NCBI GenBank assembly: GCA_028279405.1
Contig: JANQNU010000059.1
Span: 1-64,000 of the forward strand
DNA length: 64,000 bases
From: Phycisphaerae bacterium
GTDB lineage: Bacteria; Planctomycetota; Phycisphaerae; UBA1845; Fen-1342
Reading direction: 5' to 3'
The notes below the pieces were generated by a model. The model was not told the DNA's origin. It ran no database searches and saw nothing but the letters and a program-made list of their open reading frames with translations. The translations under genes were made by a program, and so were the position numbers. The stretch's first letter is position 1, and each line of letters opens with the position of its first letter. This document shows, in pieces, positions 8,468 through 28,000 of the stretch.

Positions 8468-9682
8468 ATGAGCAAGCGAGTCTACCTGGACAATAACGCG
8501 ACGACGCCGATGGACCCGCGCGTCCTCGAGGCGATGATGCCATACTTCACGGAGAAGTTCGGCAACGCCGCCTCGCGCAGCCACGCCTTCGGCTGGGAGG
8601 CTGAGGAGGCCGTCGAGACCGCCCGCAAACAGATCGCGTCCGTAATCGGCGCGGACTCCAAGGAGATCATCTTTACGAGCGGCGCGACCGAGGGCAACAA
8701 CATTGCCATCAAGGGCGCCGCGGCGATGTACGCCGACCGCGGCAAACACATCATCACCGAGGTTACCGAGCACAAGGCCGTGCTCGACCCGTGCGGATGG
8801 CTTCACCAGAACGGCTATGACGTCACCTATCTCGAGGTCGATCGCGAGGGCCGCGTCAGCGCCGAGCAGATCCAGGCGGCAATGCGAGACGACACGATCC
8901 TCGTCTCGATCATGCACGGCAACAACGAGATTGGCACGCTGCAACCGATCGCCGAGATCGGCAAGCTCTGCAAGGAGCGTGGCGTGCTGCTCCACACCGA
9001 CTGCGCCCAGACGTTCGGCAAGGTGCCGATCGATGTGAATGAGATGGGGATCGACCTTCTCACCGTCAGCGGCCACAAGATCTACGGCCCGAAGGGCGTT
9101 GGCGCGTTGTACGTTCGGCGTAAGCGGCCGCGCGTGCGGTGCGAGCCGATCGTCCACGGCGGTGGGCACGAGCGCGGCATGCGTAGCGGAACGCTCGATG
9201 TTCCGAGCATCGTCGGCCTTGGGGCGGCTGCGGAGATTGCGAAGAGCGATATGGCGTCCGACGCATCCCGAGTTTCGGGTTTGCGCGATCGGCTGATGAA
9301 GAAGATCCAGGACGCTTGTCCGGAAGTCTATCTGAACGGCCATCCGACCGAGCGACTACCGACGAACCTGAACCTATCGTTCGCCTTCGTCGAGGGCGAG
9401 AGCCTGATGATGGGTTTCAAGGAGGTGGCCGTCTCAAGCGGGTCGGCGTGTACCAGCGCCTCGCTCGAACCGAGTTACGTGCTGAAGGCGTTGGGTGTCG
9501 GCGATGAGCTGGCCCACAGCAGCATCCGCTTCTCGGTGGGGCGGTTCAACACGGAGGAAGAGATCGACCACGCCGCCGAGCGGGTCGTGGCGACGGTGGA
9601 GCATCTGCGGAAGATGAGCCCGCTGTTCGAGATGGCCCAGGAGGGCATCGACTTGAGTACGGTGGAGTGGGCGCATCACTAG
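8468..9682 (+). CDS. iscS: Cysteine desulfurase IscS
   Basis: At 404 residues this is full length for IscS. It is a class V PLP aminotransferase: [11 protein letters not shown] at the N-terminus, [10 protein letters not shown] and TEHKAV for cofactor contacts, PLP-binding Lys204 in [10 protein letters not shown], and catalytic Cys328 in [17 protein letters not shown]. The C-terminus VEWAHH matches the IscS end that docks IscU. It removes sulfur from cysteine and passes it as a persulfide to IscU. It lies between the regulator and iscU in one operon. ATG at 8468 has GAAGGGATG upstream. Confidence 0.97.
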
Positions 9683-9723: not shown

Positions 9724-10152
9724 ATGGCCTATAGCGATAAAGTTGTGGAGCACTACGAGCGACCGCGCAACGTCGGCTCGCTCGACAAGAGTTCTGAGCA
9801 GGTTGGCACCGGGATCGTCGGTGCGCCGGAGTGCGGCGACGTGATGAAGCTGCAGATTCAGGTGGACGATGATCTGAACATCGTCGACGCCAAGTTCAAG
9901 ACCTTCGGCTGCGGGTCGGCGATCGCGTCCAGCTCGCTGGCGACCGAGTGGCTGAAGGGACGTCAACTGGACAACGCGCTCGATATCAAGAACACGGATA
10001 TCGTCAAGGAGTTGGCGTTGCCACCGGTGAAGATCCACTGCAGCGTGTTGGCTGAGGACGCAATCCGGGCGGCCGTGCGCGATCTGGAGCAGAAGCTGGA
10101 GAGTGCCGGCAAGCTGCCGAAGAAAGAAGCGGCCGCAACGGCTGGAGAGTAG
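9724..10152 (+). CDS. iscU: Fe-S cluster scaffold protein IscU
   Basis: The 142-residue protein has all scaffold ligands at the canonical positions: Cys37 (APECGD) with Asp39, Cys63 (FGCGSAIASSS) and Cys106 (KIHCSVLAEDAI). The LPPVK motif at 99-103, which HscA grips, is intact. It receives sulfur from IscS and builds [2Fe-2S] clusters in the cytoplasm. Start ATG at 9724 has AGGAGAAC seven bases upstream. The acidic/basic C-terminal tail (about 15 residues) is slightly longer than in E. coli. Confidence 0.97.
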   Translation: MAYSDKVVEHYERPRNVGSLDKSSEQVGTGIVGAPECGDVMKLQIQVDDDLNIVDAKFKTFGCGSAIASSSLATEWLKGRQLDNALDIKNTDIVKELALPPVKIHCSVLAEDAIRAAVRDLEQKLESAGKLPKKEAAATAGE

Positions 10153-10290
10153 CCGCGTCGGTCGTGACGACGCTTGGCAACGGGACGCGGCCAGCGTCGC
10201 AATTCGACGTTGGGCGCATCGTGGACGATAATATGGGTTGGCCGACGCCGATCGCGTGGTTCGGCGCGTTTGATAGTTGGGAGAGCAATG

Positions 10291-10737
10291 ATGAGCACGG
10301 CTCCGGAAACGCAAGACCAGGGAGTGACCGAGGAGACGAAAACGCCGACGCCGTCGGTGCATGAGCGCGCCCGCGAAGCGGCCGAGGGAGAGGGCATCAC
10401 GCTCTCTGACGCGGCGGCGGGCGAGGTTCAGCGGATTCTCAAGGAAGGGAACTACCCCGAGTCGATGTACCTTTACGTTGGCGTGAAGGGCGGCGGCTGC
10501 AGCGGATTGCAGTACGTGCTCGATTTGCGCGACGAAGCGCACGCGCCGGTGAACGAGAACGATGAGGTCTTCAAGAGCCAGGGCCTGGCGGTTGTCTGCG
10601 ATCTCAAGAGCTTCATCGTCGGCAACCTTGGCGGCACGGTCATCGACTATCAGGAAACGATGATGGCCAAGGGCTTCGTGTTCAACAATCCGAACGCGAA
10701 GCATTCCTGCGGCTGCGGTTCCAGCTACTCGCCGTAG
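10291..10737 (+). CDS. iscA: A-type Fe-S carrier protein (IscA/ErpA family)
   Basis: Either of two adjacent ATGs (10288, 10291) could start it; GGGAG sits just upstream and 10291 gives 148 residues. The HesB/IscA fold begins near residue 36 (ITLSDAAAGEVQRIL), after a 35-residue polar extension. Ligand cysteines are Cys70 in GGGCSGLQY and Cys140/Cys142 in SCGCGSSY. It carries clusters from IscU to target proteins. A 138-base gap separates it from iscU, longer than elsewhere in the operon. ErpA is an equally good name. Confidence 0.92.
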   Translation: MSTAPETQDQGVTEETKTPTPSVHERAREAAEGEGITLSDAAAGEVQRILKEGNYPESMYLYVGVKGGGCSGLQYVLDLRDEAHAPVNENDEVFKSQGLAVVCDLKSFIVGNLGGTVIDYQETMMAKGFVFNNPNAKHSCGCGSSYSP

Positions 10738-10913
10738 ATCGGCGGGCATCTGTGACCGGCACGAGCCCTGCCTGTTAGACCGGTGACACCAACCGCGGCA
10801 GGTGCTTCGAATCGTCCTTTCAGTGAGGTGGGCGCGCCCTCGACGGTGCGCCCTCGCGACCTGTGGCGGGGCGACTTTCAGTAACCGGACGCTACGCGAG
10901 GTGGTTCCAACTG

Positions 10914-11531
10914 GTGAGTGAACGAGAATCGACAGTTCATCTGCCGGCGAAGTGCGCGGGATGTGGCGAAGCGTTTGAGACGCCGATGGTCTGCTCGGCG
11001 TGTCATCGGCTCGTAGCGGATTTGGATACGGATTACTTCACGCTGCTCGGATTGGAGCGAACCTACGACGTAGATGGGGCGGTGCTGCGGAAGGCGTACC
11101 TGCGTGTTTCACGTGAAACACACCCCGATCGCTTCGATGCGAGCGACGCCGACGAGGCAATGCAGCTTAATGCCAGGTTGAACGAAGCGAACCGCGTCTT
11201 GAAGGACCCGGTATTGCGCGCGGAGTACCTGCTGGAGCTGAGCGGGGGCCAGTCTTCCGCGGAGAATCGTGAAGTCCCTCAGGAGATCCTGACGTACACG
11301 CTGATGACGCGGGAGGAAATCGAGGAGGCGCACGCGGCGAACGACGCGGGCGCGCTCGCGCGGATTCGCGATCAGGCGACGGCGCGTCACGACGGGACTG
11401 CGGCGGAGATTGGGGCGTTAGCGCGGCGTTTGCCGGGCGATGCAACGCTTCGCGGTCAGTTGCGCGACGCCTTGAACGCGATGAAGTACCACCAGCGGAT
11501 TCTGGCCGCTTTGGACGGGACCGACGAATGA
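10914..11531 (+). CDS. hscB: Fe-S co-chaperone HscB with N-terminal zinc site
   Basis: GTG at 10914 is preferred (GAGG upstream; a longer frame opens at 10863) and gives 205 residues. Cys14/17 and Cys27/30 form a CxxC-x9-CxxC metal site like that of human HSC20, which E. coli HscB lacks. The J domain covers about 38-110 with HPD at 70-72 (RETHPDRF), followed by the C-terminal helical domain (LMTREEIEEAHA...) that holds IscU. It recruits IscU to HscA and stimulates its ATPase. A perfect parS palindrome lies inside the J-domain codons, at 11105-11120. Confidence 0.93.
   Translation: MSERESTVHLPAKCAGCGEAFETPMVCSACHRLVADLDTDYFTLLGLERTYDVDGAVLRKAYLRVSRETHPDRFDASDADEAMQLNARLNEANRVLKDPVLRAEYLLELSGGQSSAENREVPQEILTYTLMTREEIEEAHAANDAGALARIRDQATARHDGTAAEIGALARRLPGDATLRGQLRDALNAMKYHQRILAALDGTDE
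11105..11120. promoter_or_regulatory. parS: parS centromere site (ParB-binding palindrome)
   Basis: The 16 bases TGTTTCACGTGAAACA are a perfect palindrome and match the conserved bacterial chromosomal parS. They encode V-S-R-E-T just before the HPD motif of hscB. ParB loads here and spreads to organise the origin region; parS sites cluster near oriC in most bacteria. dnaA begins 5.6 kb downstream, which fits. The parA and parB genes are not in the window. A random exact match in 64 kb is expected about 1.5 times in 100,000 at even base composition. Confidence 0.85.
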
Positions 11532-11568
11532 GCTCCGCCGACCGCTTGTCGTCTAGTTGACTGGAACC

Positions 11569-13581
11569 ATGCCCGCGCACGAACCGATCATTGGCATCGA
11601 TTTGGGGACGACCTTCTCGCTGGTCTCGTTCTGCGACGAGCGCGGGCCGCGGATTCTACGCGATGAGCGCGGCGAAGGGCGTTTGCCGTCGGTGATCGGC
11701 GTGACGCACGGTTCGGACGGCAAGCCGAGCATCGCCATCGGTTGGAGCGCCCGGGCGCATGCGGTGGAGAACGCGCGTGCCACGGTTTATTCGATCAAGC
11801 GCTTGATTGGCAAGAGCCTGGCCGAGATCGAGCAGGAGCTGCCGTTCCTGGCGTACGCTGTGACCAGCGGTCCGCGCGAGACGATCCAGATCGAGATCGA
11901 CGGTCGGCGTTATTCGCCGGAGGAGATCTCGTCGGCGATCCTGCGTTCGTTAAAGGAGCGTGCGGCGGCCGCGCTGGGCGTCGCGGTCACGAAAGCGGTC
12001 ATTACGGTGCCGGCATACTTCGACGACGCTCAGCGCCAAGCAACCCGTGACGCGGCGAGCGCCGCCGGACTCGAGGTGCTGCGGATCCTCAATGAACCGA
12101 CGGCTGCGGCCCTGGCGTACGGGATCGGCCTGCGGGAGCGCGCGGCTGCGGACGACCCTGAGACCGATCGCCAGCAGGTCGCAGGCGGTGCCAATGGACA
12201 TGTTGCGTTGCCGATGCCCAAGTGTTCGGACAGCGTGCCGGCTGATGGCGGCGAGGACGACATTGACGACGCAGACGAGCAACTGATCGCGGTATATGAC
12301 CTCGGCGGCGGAACGTTCGATGTTTCGATACTGCGGCTCGAGGATGGCGTTTTTGAGGTACTGAGCACGGCTGGTGACACCCACCTGGGTGGCGACGACT
12401 TCGATCGCGAGATCATCACGCTCGTCACCGCCGAGGTGCGCGAGCAGTTTGGCGTGGATGTTCAATCGCCGACGGCGCGCCAGGCGCTGCGCGGGTTGGC
12501 GGAGTCGGTCAAAATCCGCTTGAGCGAAGCCGAAGACGCGTCGCTCGAACTCGATCTTGGTGAAGGCCGACTCTATCGACGGGTGCTGACGCGTGGCGAG
12601 TTTGAGCGGCGTCTGCTGCCGCTGGTCAGGCGAACGTTGACCTTGTGCGAGCGGGCGCTGCGGGATGCGGGGCTTCGGCGCGATGAGCTGACGCAGGTCG
12701 TGCTGGTCGGCGGGTCGACGCGGATACCGCTGGTTCGTGCGCAGGTCGCCGAGCATTTCGGGAAGGCGCCGTATACGGCGCTGAATCCGGACGAAGTGGT
12801 TGCGCTCGGTGCAGGCGTTCAGGCGTCGATTCTCTCGGGGCAGCGGAGCGACATGCTGCTGCTCGATGTGACGCCGCTCTCGCTTGGTATCGAAACGATG
12901 GGGGGAGCCGTCGGCAAGATCATCCTGCGGAACGCGCGGATTCCGTGTCGGGCGCAGGAGATGTTCACGACGTTCATGGACGGCCAGACCGCGATCAAGA
13001 TCCGCGTGCTGCAAGGCGAGCGTGAGCTGGCGGCGCATTGTCGACTGCTGGCGGAGTTCGAGTTGCGTGAGATTCCGCCGATGCCGGCGGGTATCCCGAA
13101 GGTGCAGGTAGAATTTCTCATCGACGCCAACGGGATACTCAATGTCTCCGCCGTGGAGCAGCGGAGCGGGCAGCGGGCGGCCATCCAGGTCATTCCCAAT
13201 CGCGGACTGACGCGCGCCGAGGTCGAGCGGATCGAACAGGAGAGCATCGCGTTTGCGAAGGACGATATCGACGCGCACCGACGGATCGATCTGGTGAACC
13301 AGATCGTGTTCGACACACAGAAGGCCGAGCAGATGCTGGCGCGGGTCGGCAGCGGGGTCGACGGCGCGTTGCGGCGTGAGATCGAGCGTGAGATGGCGTC
13401 GTTGCGCGCGATGGCGCGCGATCCGAGCGACCTCGACGCGCTGCACGCCGCTCTCGACCATTTCGGTAAGCGGACACTCCCCCTGGCCGAAGCGGGGGTC
13501 CGCACCGCGCTCGTGCAAGGCGGAACACAGATGGCCCGCGAGGAAACAACAACCGCGGATCAACGAAACCCCGAGGAGTAG
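11569..13581 (+). CDS. hscA: Fe-S biogenesis Hsp70 chaperone HscA
   Basis: ATG at 11569 gives 670 residues; a TTG at 11557 is a less likely start. The nucleotide-binding domain has [14 protein letters not shown], the phosphate-2 motif [13 protein letters not shown] and [12 protein letters not shown], then a substrate-binding domain from about residue 430 ([17 protein letters not shown]). Position next to hscB, iscU and fdx identifies it as HscA rather than DnaK. An acidic, Gly/Ala-rich insertion of about 45 residues sits before YDLGGGTFD, where Hsp70s normally have only a few. It releases clusters from IscU in an ATP cycle with HscB. Confidence 0.92.
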
Positions 13582-13584
13582 TTA

Positions 13585-14001
13585 ATGGGTGGACAGAATC
13601 CTTACATTCCAGAAGCCGACATCGAGATGCCGAAGACGAAGTTCACGATTCGGTACGTCGACGAGCAGAAGAAGGAACACCTGATCGAAGTGGACCCGGA
13701 GAAGATTCCATATGACGATCATGGCCTTCCCGGGAGCCTGCTCGACATCGCAATGGCCCACGGTATCGAGATCGATCACGCCTGCGGCGGTGTCTGCGCC
13801 TGCAGCACGTGTCACGTCGTCGTTCGGGAAGGGTTGGAGACCTGTAGCGATTCCTCGGACGATGAGGAAGACCAGCTCGACCAGGCCTACGGTCTGACCG
13901 CTAGTTCTCGGCTGGCCTGTCAGTGCGTGCCGAATGGCAAGCAGAATCTCGTTGTCGAGGTCCCGGCCTGGAACCGCAACCTGGCGCGCGAAGCGCACTG
14001 A
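13585..14001 (+). CDS. fdx: [2Fe-2S] ferredoxin of the ISC system
   Basis: The 138-residue protein begins 3 bases after hscA. Cluster ligands are Cys67, Cys73 and Cys76 (ACGGVCACSTCHV, the C-x5-C-x2-C pattern) and Cys112 (LACQC), as in adrenodoxin-type ferredoxins; Cys71 and Cys114 are extra. The DSSDDEEDQLD acidic stretch after the ligands is the usual partner-binding helix. It supplies electrons for cluster assembly on IscU. An N-terminal extension of about 17 residues precedes the fold. It is the last gene of the operon and the next gene is convergent. Confidence 0.93.
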   Translation: MGGQNPYIPEADIEMPKTKFTIRYVDEQKKEHLIEVDPEKIPYDDHGLPGSLLDIAMAHGIEIDHACGGVCACSTCHVVVREGLETCSDSSDDEEDQLDQAYGLTASSRLACQCVPNGKQNLVVEVPAWNRNLAREAH

Positions 14002-16491: not shown

Positions 16492-16500
16492 TGTGGATAA
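16492..16500 (-). promoter_or_regulatory. Perfect DnaA box
   Basis: TGTGGATAA is the reverse complement of the consensus TTATCCACA. It lies 100 bases upstream of the dnaA promoter and 24 bases from an AT-rich tract, so it can serve initiation, autoregulation of dnaA, or both. Confidence 0.75.
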
Positions 16501-16735: not shown

Positions 16736-18166
16736 ATGCGAGAGACCACGGAGAAGGTCTGCACTCTACAAGCGCGCATTGCCGCCCGGATCGGCGATAG
16801 TCGCTATCGAACATGGTTCGCGGACAAGGCCCGTTTCGAGTTGGCGGAGCAACGGCTCACGGTCACGGTTGCGTCAGCTTTCGTGGGGAACTGGATCGCT
16901 TCGAACTTCATGGACGACCTGCAAGAGGCGATGCACGAAACCGTCGGCGACGGTGGCGTCGTTCGTTTGCGAGTAGGGACCGCGGATGGCGGCGAACACA
17001 CCAATGGTAGCGCGCAGAACGACCGCCCGCGCCGTCCGAGTCGTGCGGAGCGTTCGATCGAGTTGCGGACGGACCGCAGTCGGCGCGGACCGCGTTTTCG
17101 GGGTCAACTGGGTTCGTTCGTGGTCGGTCCTTGTAACCAGCTGGCGTACGCGGCGGCGTGTGCACTGGCGCGCAGGGACGCGGGCAACGGGCTGCGCCAC
17201 TTGCTGCTGCACGGCGCGAGCGGCCTGGGCAAGACGCACCTGCTGCAGGGCATTGCGAACGAGTATCAGGATTCGCATCCGGCACAGAGTTGCTGCTATG
17301 TCTCGGGCGAGGAGTTCACCAACGAGTTTGTGTATGCACTGAAGTCGGGCCGGCTCGAGTCCTTTCGAGCGCGTTTTCGGGGCGTCGACGTACTACTGAT
17401 CGACGATCTGCACTTTCTGGCGCACAAGAGTGCCACGCAGCAGGAATTCCTGCATACGTTCGATGCCATTGACGGTGTCGGGAAGACGATCGTCATGACG
17501 ACCGACAAGCATCCGCGAGCGATGACAGCGCTATCGGATCCGCTTGTGAGTCGGTTGATTGCGGCGACGGTCGTTGAGATCGAGCCGCCGGGGTTGGAGA
17601 CGCGCCGCGAGATTCTGCGTCGCCGGGCGGCGCAAATGAAGCGAGATCTGCCCGAGCCGCTGATTCATTACGTGGCCTCGCGCATCACGCGCAACGTGCG
17701 CGAACTCGAGGGCGCACTGTATAAGATCATTGCGCTGCAGACCCTGTCGAACGAGCCCTTGAATTTCGAGCTTGCACAGCGGGCGCTCGAGGAATCCGGT
17801 GCGGTCGGTCCGGTCCGGCCGGACGCCGAGCAGATCCAGCGGGCGGTTGCCCGATACTTCGGCGTGAACGTGCGGGACCTGCTCTCGGCCTCGCGCGACC
17901 GGACGGTGGTGACGGCGCGGGGCGTAGCGATGTACCTCATTCGCAAAGAGCTGGGTCTGAGCTTTCCGGAGATCGGTCGGCGAATGAAGCGCCGACATTC
18001 GACGGTCTGCATGGCTTGTCGGCGAATCGAGGAGACGGTCGAGCGAACGGGCGTGTTGAGCTGGCGTGCGGCAGGCGCGGTCCGGGAACAGCCGGTCGCG
18101 ACGATTCTCGAGCTGATCCGTGAGCAGTTGGCCGGCCGCACCGAGGCGCCGCGACACGCGGATTAG
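16736..18166 (+). CDS. dnaA: Chromosomal replication initiator protein DnaA
   Basis: All four domains are present in 476 residues. Domain I is about 1-75 (SRYRTWFADKARFEL), domain II a basic linker to about 120, and domain III the AAA+ module with FVVGPCNQLAY, Walker A at 159-167 (HGASGLGKT), Walker B at 219-224 (VLLIDD) and the sensor MTTDKHP. Domain IV (about 365-440) carries the DnaA-box recognition helix LSFPEIGRRMKRRHSTV. It binds ATP, opens the origin and loads the helicase. ATG at 16736 has AGGGA upstream. dnaN and recF do not follow it, unlike in most bacteria. Confidence 0.97.
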   Translation: MRETTEKVCTLQARIAARIGDSRYRTWFADKARFELAEQRLTVTVASAFVGNWIASNFMDDLQEAMHETVGDGGVVRLRVGTADGGEHTNGSAQNDRPRRPSRAERSIELRTDRSRRGPRFRGQLGSFVVGPCNQLAYAAACALARRDAGNGLRHLLLHGASGLGKTHLLQGIANEYQDSHPAQSCCYVSGEEFTNEFVYALKSGRLESFRARFRGVDVLLIDDLHFLAHKSATQQEFLHTFDAIDGVGKTIVMTTDKHPRAMTALSDPLVSRLIAATVVEIEPPGLETRREILRRRAAQMKRDLPEPLIHYVASRITRNVRELEGALYKIIALQTLSNEPLNFELAQRALEESGAVGPVRPDAEQIQRAVARYFGVNVRDLLSASRDRTVVTARGVAMYLIRKELGLSFPEIGRRMKRRHSTVCMACRRIEETVERTGVLSWRAAGAVREQPVATILELIREQLAGRTEAPRHAD

Positions 18167-18703: not shown

Positions 18704-20374
18704 ATGTTCGCATTGCGCGTGCAGACGGCGGACGGCCCGCAGACGATCGAGCTGGGCATGCGGCCGGTGATTCTCGGTCGTTCGGATGCCTGCGACATTG
18801 TCTTGCGCAATGACGGCGAAGTGTCGCGCGAGCACGCCCAGGTTTGGGTCGAGGCCGGCACGGTGCTCGTGTCCGATTCGAACTCCAAGAACGGCACGCG
18901 GGTGGACAACGGGGAGCTGTTTCGGAACGAGGTGCGACCGGCGGCGGAGTGTATCCGGATCGGGGGTTACGATATCTCGATCCTCGGTAGTACGGCGGGT
19001 GCGGATCTCGTCGGCGTTCGGTATCAACCGGATGCGCCGACCGGAATGGGCAACACCAAGTTCCTCCCGTCCTCGCGACCGCCGGCCCTGATTAATCAGA
19101 AACGGCTCGGCTTGCTCATGGGGCTGACGGATCGGATCGGCGGCGTTTTCGAGAAACGCCAGCTCATGGAGCAGGCGCTCGACGCCTGCTGCGAAGCGCT
19201 GGACTTCGAACGCGGTCTGATTGCCCTCAAGGCGCGCCGCGGCGAGACCGAAGAGCCGGTCACGCGTAACGTCCAACGGGATGAGAACGGTGCCTACAAG
19301 GTCAGCCGGACGCTGATCAACCGCGCGTTGGTGGAGGGCGAGCGCGCGATCGTGAACAACCCCGCCACCGATCTCGTCGACAACCTCTCGGAGAGTTTGG
19401 TTCGGTTTCCGATCTGCTCGGCGCTCTGCGTCCCGATCCAGCACCGCGACGACATCCTCGGTGTGATATACGGTGACCGGATCACGCGCGCCGCGACTTA
19501 TACGGATGAGGACGTCGATTTCTTTGCGGCCATCGCGCAGCAGGTCGCGGTCGGCCTCGCCAACCTGCGGCTCTTCGAGAGCCACGTGCAGTCGCAAAAA
19601 ATATACGCGTCGCTCGAACAGGCGCGGACGATCCAGCGCCGCCTGCTGCCGAGCAAGCCGCTGACCGTGCCCGGCGTCGCGATCACCGGAATGAACCGTC
19701 CGTCGACATCCGTCGGCGGTGACTACTTCGACTACTTTTCGCTCGACGAGCAGCGCGTCGGGCTGATCATCGCGGACGTAACCGGGCACGGCTTGCCGTC
19801 AGCGTTGATCATGGCCAACTTCCAGGCAGCAGTACACGTCGCGCTGACGCCGACGATCCCGCTGCCGGAGCTCGGAGAGCGGCTCAACCAGTTGGTGTTT
19901 CGGAACACGCCCGCGGAGGTCTTCATCACGGCGATCATTGCGCGGCTCGACGTACCGACCGGGCGAATCGAGTTCATCAGTGCCGGTCACCCCGGGCCAA
20001 TCGTCTTCGGCGACGGTGGTCCGGTGCAGTGGGAGGACGAGCAGGAGACCAACGCCCTGCCGTTCGGCGTGCTGCCCACCGACGAGTATCAGGTGCAGTT
20101 GCTGATGCCGGATGCCGCGTGCAATGCGTTGTTGTTCTACACCGACGGATTGACCGAGGCCGAGAATGCGGCGGGGAACATGCTGGGAGCGGAGCGCGTC
20201 GCGGATGCGTTGCGCGGGTTGCCCAATCCAGGGGCTCCGGAGCTGATCGATGCGACGCTGGCACTGGTCGGCGACCACGTCGGCGAGCACGATGCGGCCC
20301 AGGACGACTTGACGTTGATGGCGCTGCGTTATGACCCGGAGAATGTGAAATCTCGGTCATCGAATGGCAAATAA
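18704..20374 (+). CDS. FHA-GAF-PP2C (SpoIIE/RsbU-type) serine phosphatase
   Basis: The 556-residue protein combines three signalling domains. The FHA domain (about 1-95) has LGRSDACDIVL, VSREHA and DSNSKNGTRVDN, the phosphothreonine-binding loops. A GAF domain (about 125-290) follows, with FPICSALCVPI. A PP2C-type phosphatase fills 310-550 with SVGGDYFDYF and the metal ligand IIADVTGHGLPSALIMA. Such proteins remove phosphate from partners such as anti-sigma antagonists; the target is unknown. No kinase or anti-sigma gene is adjacent, but a phosphothreonine partner is implied by the FHA domain. Confidence 0.92.
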   Translation: MFALRVQTADGPQTIELGMRPVILGRSDACDIVLRNDGEVSREHAQVWVEAGTVLVSDSNSKNGTRVDNGELFRNEVRPAAECIRIGGYDISILGSTAGADLVGVRYQPDAPTGMGNTKFLPSSRPPALINQKRLGLLMGLTDRIGGVFEKRQLMEQALDACCEALDFERGLIALKARRGETEEPVTRNVQRDENGAYKVSRTLINRALVEGERAIVNNPATDLVDNLSESLVRFPICSALCVPIQHRDDILGVIYGDRITRAATYTDEDVDFFAAIAQQVAVGLANLRLFESHVQSQKIYASLEQARTIQRRLLPSKPLTVPGVAITGMNRPSTSVGGDYFDYFSLDEQRVGLIIADVTGHGLPSALIMANFQAAVHVALTPTIPLPELGERLNQLVFRNTPAEVFITAIIARLDVPTGRIEFISAGHPGPIVFGDGGPVQWEDEQETNALPFGVLPTDEYQVQLLMPDAACNALLFYTDGLTEAENAAGNMLGAERVADALRGLPNPGAPELIDATLALVGDHVGEHDAAQDDLTLMALRYDPENVKSRSSNGK

Positions 20375-25090: not shown

Positions 25091-28000
25091 CTAGTCTTTC
25101 GGCGGTTCGTCATCGCCGCGCGCTCGGCGTTTGGCCTTGAGCAGCCGCGAGGTGTAGTCGCCTTCGGACTGGACAGGCTTCTTTTGTGTCGGGCGGGCGA
25201 CAACCGGCGCATTCTGTTCGGAGGTCCCGCCGAGCGCCCGGCTCAGGTCCTCCGTTGCCTTCGAGGCGCGCTCCGGCGCCTCGTATCGTGCTCCACGTGT
25301 CGGCGGCGCGCCGGTCTCGCTTGCTTCGGGCTTGACTTCCTCGCGGACGCGTTCGCGCGCCCCCTTGAGCGAGGTCAGCACGGCGGCGCTCTGTTCGCCT
25401 TTCTGTCGCGCACCGGCCATTTCACCGATTCGCCGACGGAGCTTTCGCGCGACCTCGACCGGGTTGATCGCAATTCGACGAATCGCGACGTCCAGGAGGA
25501 ACAGGATCAGCGTCCAGCGGATCAAGTCTTCCCAGATCGGTCTTCGCGTCTCGACTTCGGGGAGTGAGCCGCGATCGTACGCTGTGGCCGCCTCACCCGC
25601 GCTGAGCGTTCGTCCGTTCGTGAGCGTCTGCAATTCGCTCAGGACGGCCAGATTCGGCTCGAGCTCCTCATACTCCGGCGAGTACGCAACCGACACGCCT
25701 GTGCGAAGGTTGCCGGAGATCGCGTCGGCACCGACGCCCATCGAGTAGCCGAGATTCACGATGTAGTTGCCCCGACCCTGAGCGTCGAACTCGCCTTCGT
25801 AAACGCCGGGACTTACCTGCAGCAACTCGATCGGCGCCGCTTCCTGATCCGGGTCGACCAGCGAACCGCGTAGCGTCATGAAGTTGATCGCCGCGGCGTC
25901 CTTGTCGAGCGCTTCCACGCGAATCTTGCCCTTGCCTCCGACGACCGTCGTATTGACGTCGAGATTCGCGGACTCGTGCTGTCGGCTGGCCCAGCGGGCC
26001 ATCTGTGCCCAGAACTTCGAGAACCCCGGCCAAGCCGCCCAGTTGCTGCCCCAACGCGACCACATGCCGCTCGTAAACGCCACGGTTCTACCCAGGCCGA
26101 CCTGCCAGTAGGCGAGGACCGGGTCGTTGGAGCTGTCCTCCGTCGCGCGAACCAGCGGGATCTCGGCCAACGGCTTCGGCGTCGTCAGCACGATTCCGCC
26201 CAACGGCGGCACCGCGTCGAGCGACTGTACCAACGACGACAGCTGCGACGACATCTGCGGCGTGAACGGGGTTTCCTGGATCAGCGATCGCCGAACGATA
26301 CGGGCTTCTTTCATGAAGATCTTCGGAAGCTGATCGAACTTGGCCGTGGCATAGAACTTACCGCCCGTCGATTCGGCGATCCACTTCGCCTTCGGCTCGT
26401 CGATCATGTGTCCGCCGTACCCGATCGCGATGGTCGAGCAGGTGATGTTATTGTCCTTCATCTTGCGAATCAGGGCATTCGACGGCTCCTGTGGGTCGAA
26501 GTCGGAGACGATGATCATATGCTTGACGGCGGCGTCACGTCGTTTGGCCAGGGCGTCGACGCCCGGCTTCATCACCTCGTGCAGGTCCGGCATATCACCC
26601 ATCTGCATCTTGAGTACGCGTTGAATGATCGCGGTCTTGTTGGTGACCTGCTGCAACGGAATATCCCAGAAACCCTGCTCGCTACTCTGCCATTGGTACG
26701 AAAGCACCCCGACAAGGTCGCGCGTGCTAAGCGTCTTGATCGCCGACACGGCGCACCGCTGACCGATGTAGTTGCCGTTGGGGACCTCGCAGGCGTGCAT
26801 GACCAGCACCAGGGCGCCCTTGGGAATCTGCTTCTCACCCTTGACGTCGAAGCTGACCGGCATGATCTCCTCGACGGGCGTGTCCATCCACCCGCCGGCA
26901 CCGAACGCCGAATCGCCGCCGATCATGATCAGGCCGCCGCCAAGCTCACGCACGTAAGTCGCGAGCGCCGCGACTGCGTTGTCTCCGATCTCGTTGCGGG
27001 GCAGGTTCGAGAGAATGACCAGCGAGTACTCCAACAGCCGTACCTGGTCGAGGGGGGCCTGCCCCGGCGTCTCGAGGTCGACCGTGAGCCCTTCGCGCTC
27101 CAGCGCCTGCTTCAGTACCACAGCTGACGGGGCTGTGAGGCTCATGTCCTCCTCAGTCGTGAGAATCAGGATCTTGCCCTGACCCGAAACGATCGTGAAC
27201 CCCATTCCTTCATTGTTGGTGCTGATCGCGTCGTCCCCAGGGTTGTCCGGCTCGAAGACCGCTCGGAAGCGATGAGCGCCCGCGACACGCATCTCGATCG
27301 GAACCGAGAAGCGGTTCGGGCCGCGATCCAACTCGACCGGGAAACCCGTCCCGTCCCCGAAATCGAGCAATTTTTCGTTCTGATACACAAGTACGCGACC
27401 GCGGGTCGGACGCTGCGCACGCATCACCATCTGCAGGTTGATCGTCTGTTCGGCCGCCGCCGTCGCCGGTACGCGCAACTGCTCGAAAACGACCTCGTCC
27501 GAGTGCTCATAGGTCAGCGGAACCACGTCGATCGGCACGCCGGTGGCGCGGTATTGCTCGGCTTCGCGCAAAGCCTGGCCGACGTTCTCGTTCCCGTCCG
27601 TCAGGATAATCACCCGGCGCAGCGTGTCCGGCGGAAACAGCGCCATCGCCAATCGCAACGCGCCCGAGATGTCCGTCTGGTCGGTATCGATCGTAGCACT
27701 GATCCGATCCAGCGCCAGACGGCTCATCGGAATCTGCTCGACCGAACTGCTGCCGCTGAACGCAATGACACCCACCCGGTCATCCTTGTCGATCCCGTCC
27801 TCCGACTGCTCGATGAACGCGAAGGCGCGTTCCTGTAGCGGCCGCGGGATGCTGGCGGATCTGTCCAGCAGGAACAGCACGGTCAGGTCGTCACTCTTGC
27901 GCATGCGACTGGCGCCGGCCAGCGCAAGCACCATCATCCCCACTACGGCGCAGCGCACCGCGATCGCGACCCACCGTCGAACGGGTCCAAGGCCCGAGAG

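Follow-up and report, generated by a model that had tools for sequence, protein, structure and literature searches.

The window (the whole 64-kb stretch of DNA that was analyzed) carries an isc operon with genes for Rrf2, Aminotran_5/iscS, NifU_N/iscU, Fe-S_biosyn/iscA, hscB, HSP70/hscA, and ferredoxin. A parS-type site lies within the coding region of hscB, and the features around it are listed below.

8468-9682, + strand: iscS-like gene (Aminotran_5) in the operon of hscB
9724-10152, + strand: iscU (NifU_N domain match)
10174-10737, + strand: iscA-like gene (Fe-S_biosyn domain match)
10863-11531, + strand: hscB, with J domain and HSCB_C (Pfam DnaJ and HSCB_C matches)
11105-11120, no strand assigned: parS-type site TGTTTCACGTGAAACA, a perfect palindrome with 0 mismatches
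11121-11129, + strand: HPD codons CAC CCC GAT, immediately 3' of the site
11557-13581, + strand: hscA (HSP70 domain match)
13585-14001, + strand: ferredoxin gene (Fer2 domain match)

The product of hscB has the marks of an HscB co-chaperone, namely a J domain with HPD, an HSCB_C domain, and a gene within the isc operon. The frame across the site reads ...A-Y-L-R-V-S-R-E-T-H-P-D-R-F, and the site encodes V-S-R-E-T directly before the HPD of the J domain; this frame and the DnaJ and HSCB_C matches agree with the placement given in the preliminary description. When the whole window was searched, TGTTTCACGTGAAACA matched once (n = 1), at 11105-11120, where the 16-bp palindrome tGTTTCACGTGAAACa is present exactly, and no second match was found in the window at up to 3 mismatches. 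Judged by its sequence, the hscB 16-mer is a parS, as the earlier claim of a perfect consensus palindrome had it.

An order-3 Markov model gives an expectation of 6.7e-6 for the 16-mer per window (close to the earlier estimate of 1.5e-5 per 64 kb) and of 5.9e-4 per 5.63-Mb genome. The six codons CGT-GTT-TCA-CGT-GAA-ACA are all non-preferred, with a joint synonymous probability of ∼6e-6, and equally rare six-codon stretches make up 0.5% of the 18,389 in the window. Across the chromosome there are 8 exact 16-mers and 27 copies of the 14-mer core, with the hscB copy included in both tallies. That the 16-mer appeared in hscB by chance might be favored by the family peptide [LV]SRE[VIT]HPD, which is close to the one that parS encodes, but the low expectation per window, the rare codons throughout, and the 26 other copies in the genome make this exceedingly improbable. 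For the whole set of sites, chance is statistically refuted.

The history of the site was traced by comparing 30 hscB loci, 29 of them from relatives, and the site was present in none of the relatives' loci. Their peptide at this position is mostly [LVI]SR[EGDN][VIT]HPD, compared with these loci hscB has nothing inserted at the site, and one relative (G010) has the peptide A-S-R-E-T without the parS DNA word. V-S-R-E-T, as these sequences indicate, falls inside the natural variation of the HscB family, whose motif means that the stretch was already near the peptide that parS encodes. Because the site is missing from every examined relative's hscB, it is most likely recent in this lineage, having arisen by substitution in a stretch already close to parS. 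Conservation of these codons in related species, which had been proposed as a sign of selection on the DNA, is thus not found (0 of 29 relatives' loci with the site). The proposal that protein and centromere share these bases holds insofar as the parS word lies in coding DNA, but nothing special is needed for this, given the family motif and the precedent of parS within genes in Caulobacter (PMC5815017).

The preliminary description had also placed the site 5.4 kb from a candidate origin. This distance is right when taken to the DnaA box at 16492, beside which lie the following features.

16492-16500, - strand: DnaA box TGTGGATAA, the only exact DnaA box in the 64-kb window
16736-18166, + strand: dnaA paralog of a second DnaA clade, not linked to dnaN (tree and synteny)
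18704-20374, + strand: FHA-GAF-SpoIIE gene adjoining the dnaA paralog (domain architecture)

Two deeply split dnaA genes are present in the genome that holds the window (G000, a draft of 5.63 Mb in 92 contigs, 95.5% complete) and in most relatives searched. The tree separates the window dnaA from the other copy by a deep split with support of 100/100, and the FHA-GAF-SpoIIE architecture is also found beside the second dnaA of a relative (G012). Neither dnaN nor gyrB was found beside the window dnaA, and the GC skew has no sign change there. The canonical dnaA lies on contig C92 at 25291-26604 (L326 9292-10605), followed by dnaN and gyrB, and at this cluster the GC skew steps up from ∼0 to +0.1-0.17. 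From tree and synteny, we conclude that the window dnaA is an ancient paralog; replication probably does not start at the spot of the 16492 box, to which the earlier distance was measured. The hscB site (contig C28) and the canonical dnaA-dnaN-gyrB cluster (C92) are on separate contigs of the draft assembly.

The 14-mer core GTTTCACGTGAAAC occurs 27 times in G000 against an expectation of 0.015, and the reversed core word, used as a control in the same genome, occurs 0 times. These 27 cores form 23 clusters on 21 of the 92 contigs, compared with 17.8 ± 1.8 contigs under uniform scatter, and 2 same-contig cluster pairs were observed versus 7.0 expected. A single contiguous zone of ≤3 Mb out of 5.63 Mb is rejected (P ≤ 0.0007 in a test that assumes random contig order), and the sites are not confined to the origin-flanking ∼20% of the chromosome within which parS mostly lies (PMC7022226). 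The 123-kb contig with the window dnaA holds one core site only, and this scatter runs against the predicted clustering of the 16-mer and its variants around dnaA. The longest contig (C57, 475,701 bases) has no core site, with P ∼0.13 under uniform scatter, and is possibly a site-free terminus region.

An ordinary origin-proximal parS that backs an origin at the window dnaA would fit the exact parS word, the presence of a ParB in the genome, and a dnaA with one exact DnaA box ∼5.5 kb away. This explanation is very unlikely, since the sites are scattered genome-wide, the window dnaA is a paralog that lacks dnaN, gyrB, and a skew sign change, the 64 kb hold one exact DnaA box, and the canonical cluster and skew step are on C92. 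The support that the site had been thought to give to an origin at the window dnaA falls away with it.

When sites with ≤2 mismatches were placed relative to genes in G000, 17 of 31 were inside genes versus 87% expected (P ∼2e-5), so coding sites are under-represented and intergenic ones over-represented. About half of the sites are deep inside genes, and several others lie between convergent genes or just past stop codons. These positions are not promoter-like, and a promoter-operator reading of the sites was rejected on this ground. On contig C23, two convergent genes have three sites between them (151142, 151184, and 151226), at intervals of 42 bp.

A parS reading requires a ParB gene, and one gene above the family cut-off was found in G000, on contig C52; three exact 16-mers lie inside this gene or a short way downstream of it. 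The DNA-binding domain of its product belongs to the Spo0J/ParB type and keeps the equivalents of R173, N178, G201, and R204, with different residues at positions 162 and 171 (Ala and Glu). R173 and G201 are reported to be invariant in parS-binding ParBs (PMC7383237), and with them the C52 protein has specificity residues of the parS type. The Noc-type residues Q173, K179/184, and R201 and the Noc word ATTTCCCGGGAAAT are not what this genome has; its ParB carries R and G at 173 and 201, and its sites have the parS core. An SMC gene is present, as is a Soj-like ParA on C74, with MRRIAVLNQKGGVGKTTTAVNVAAAL, that does not adjoin parB. At parB, nearly all relatives carry 1-6 sites (the ParB comparison among relatives leaves out the G011 row), and their dnaA of the C92 clade is 23-64 kb from parB in five relatives and farther in G015 and G023.

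The sites of G000 share more than the core. TTG is found at positions +5 to +7 outside the core in 34 of 54 half-sites (background 1.3%, P ∼1e-50), and most sites fit an extended palindrome of ∼30 bp, GCAAN4-core-N4TTGC, in which the conserved flank sits 12-14 bp from the center. No similarity among the G000 sites was found beyond ∼14 bp outside the core center. The GCAA...TTGC flank is also present on sites of G020 and G011, and single-site relatives are mostly without it. An exact search for GCAAN4-core-N4TTGC in 84,980 species genomes returned 50 stretches, most labeled Phycisphaerae and most of those from G020. Among the 27 cores, flanks are weakest at the hscB copy, which has no extended palindrome; the Pro codon of HPD fills its positions +5 to +7, where most other sites have TTG. 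J proteins need HPD, and the hscB copy would lack the flank because this motif, which the protein cannot spare, occupies those bases.

To our knowledge, the GCAA/TTGC flank is outside any known parS consensus, so another protein or a repeat element could be involved. The sites could be operators at which another DNA-binding protein (for example a transcriptional regulator or one resembling Noc) reads the extended palindrome. A flank conserved 12-14 bp from the center and missing in single-site relatives is consistent with this, as are the scattered Noc sites of Bacillus (PMC4331003). We consider such operators unlikely, however, because the core is the parS word and not the Noc word, the sole ParB-family gene above the cut-off in G000 has parS-type residues, and the site positions are not promoter-like.

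High copy numbers are not confined to G000. For the 396 members of the class with a completeness of at least 90%, a count of 0-2 core sites is typical, and the exceptions are G059 (51), G064 (34), and G000 (27); G020, seen in the relatives search, has 61. These four genomes span three families of one order. When site positions in G000, G020, and G059 were compared for orthology, parB was the only one in common, and this between G000 and G020, so the expansions look independent or subject to fast turnover. Flanks vary by lineage (GCAACG in G000, CAAATC in G059, AGCGAA in G064). The sites of G020 and G059 are mostly intergenic (nearly all in G059), and those of G059 are often paired 31-32 bp apart. 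The G059 pairs (e.g. L186, L193, L198, and L205) often end in GCGCAGATTT / AAGATTTGGCC and form a directional unit of ∼67 bp scattered over the genome. The same genome encodes three extra ParB-domain proteins of ∼590 amino acids (C30:49125, C41:167387, and C9:51528). In G064 (L173, L179, and L223-L225), clusters of 2-5 sites are found beside simple repeats, CAGCCATCAGC... and CACAGCCGCCCTCGGCTGTG, and their flanks do not resemble the G000 ones. Similar sizes of neighboring genes in G020 and G059 proved to be an artifact of the ±1-kb windows around sites.

These patterns bear on the main rival explanation, in which a REP/REPIN-like palindromic repeat spread by copying, its core resembles or contains parS, and ParB binding is incidental. 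REP/REPIN elements with RAYT are likewise short palindromes, with many copies, often intergenic, and the sites of G059 resemble them in being paired; the ∼30-bp extended palindrome, the lineage-specific flanks, and the nearly all intergenic 31-32-bp pairs of G059 would all suit a copied repeat. Unlike REP/REPIN, the G000 sites have no conserved sequence outside the palindrome, similarity ending ∼14 bp outside the core center, and about half are intragenic. The hscB site has neither an insertion relative to relatives nor the flank. A Y1 (RAYT) transposase flanked by the repeat was not found at any of 30 Y1 loci from 8 genomes (0 of 30 hold a site), and G000 has one weak Y1 match, fewer than single-site genomes have. 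The copied-repeat explanation is weakened by this evidence and, on balance, doubtful; it stays strongest for G059 and G064.

Comparison with known systems places the sites of G000 nearest to chromosomal ParABS. The systems of Bacillus subtilis, Caulobacter crescentus, Streptomyces coelicolor, and Listeria innocua have the same 16-bp/14-bp word and a parS-type ParB/Spo0J, and known chromosomal systems also share a Soj-like ParA, SMC, a cluster at parB, and some intragenic sites (Caulobacter, PMC5815017). They differ in that their sites are mostly near the origin, reaching 20-23 there in the published counts found (PMC7333895), whereas the ∼27 cores of G000 are spread over the genome, most with the extended GCAA...TTGC palindrome, and ParA is apart from parB. 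Noc and its NBS sites in Bacillus are alike in having a ParB-family word scattered around the chromosome, but that word is another one, and G000 shows no sign of a membrane or division role. In Pseudomonas aeruginosa, ParB contacts also extend across the whole chromosome, through half-parS sites of 7 bp that are present by the hundred (PMC7022226); those of G000 are full palindromes, far above chance.

Based on the word itself, the ParB residues, and the genome-wide excess, the hscB 16-mer is probably a genuine ParB site, one of ∼27 dispersed cores, next to an ancestral three-site centromere at parB. Point substitutions in the J-domain stretch, whose peptide was already near the parS-encoded one, would have made the hscB site, in a lineage that gathered its ∼27 cores chromosome-wide beside the ancestral centromere. 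Each site would take up ParB dimers, which would close with CTP, slide over a short distance, and recruit SMC, and the dispersed sites may serve as chromosome-wide entry points for ParB and condensin or as nucleoid-organizing marks rather than as an origin label. Several results count against dispersed parS, including the different positions in G000 and G020, the absent flank in hscB, and the under-representation in coding DNA. Caulobacter is harmed by extra parS placed in mid-arm (PMC5815017), and scattered sites active by the dozen would therefore be unexpected.

In the papers searched, mostly open-access ones, full parS scattered over a planctomycete genome had not been described. A broader proposal, which we put forward tentatively and hold less firmly than the one for hscB, is that in several planctomycete lineages ParB may act as a genome-wide organizer, with dozens of parS in a lineage-type extended palindrome as distributed loading points for ParB and condensin, even in conserved codons of genes like hscB. 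Reviews have asked why the number of parS varies and why parS stays clustered at the origin (PMC7333895, PMC5815017), and distant extra parS is poorly tolerated in Caulobacter and Pseudomonas experiments (PMC7333895, PMC5815017). G000, where full parS words by the dozen extend over most of the genome, would be a direct natural exception to origin-clustered parS, together with no fewer than three other, separate high-copy genomes of the same order, and it makes testable whether ParB loads at all sites and what change in ParA, ParB, or SMC allows it.
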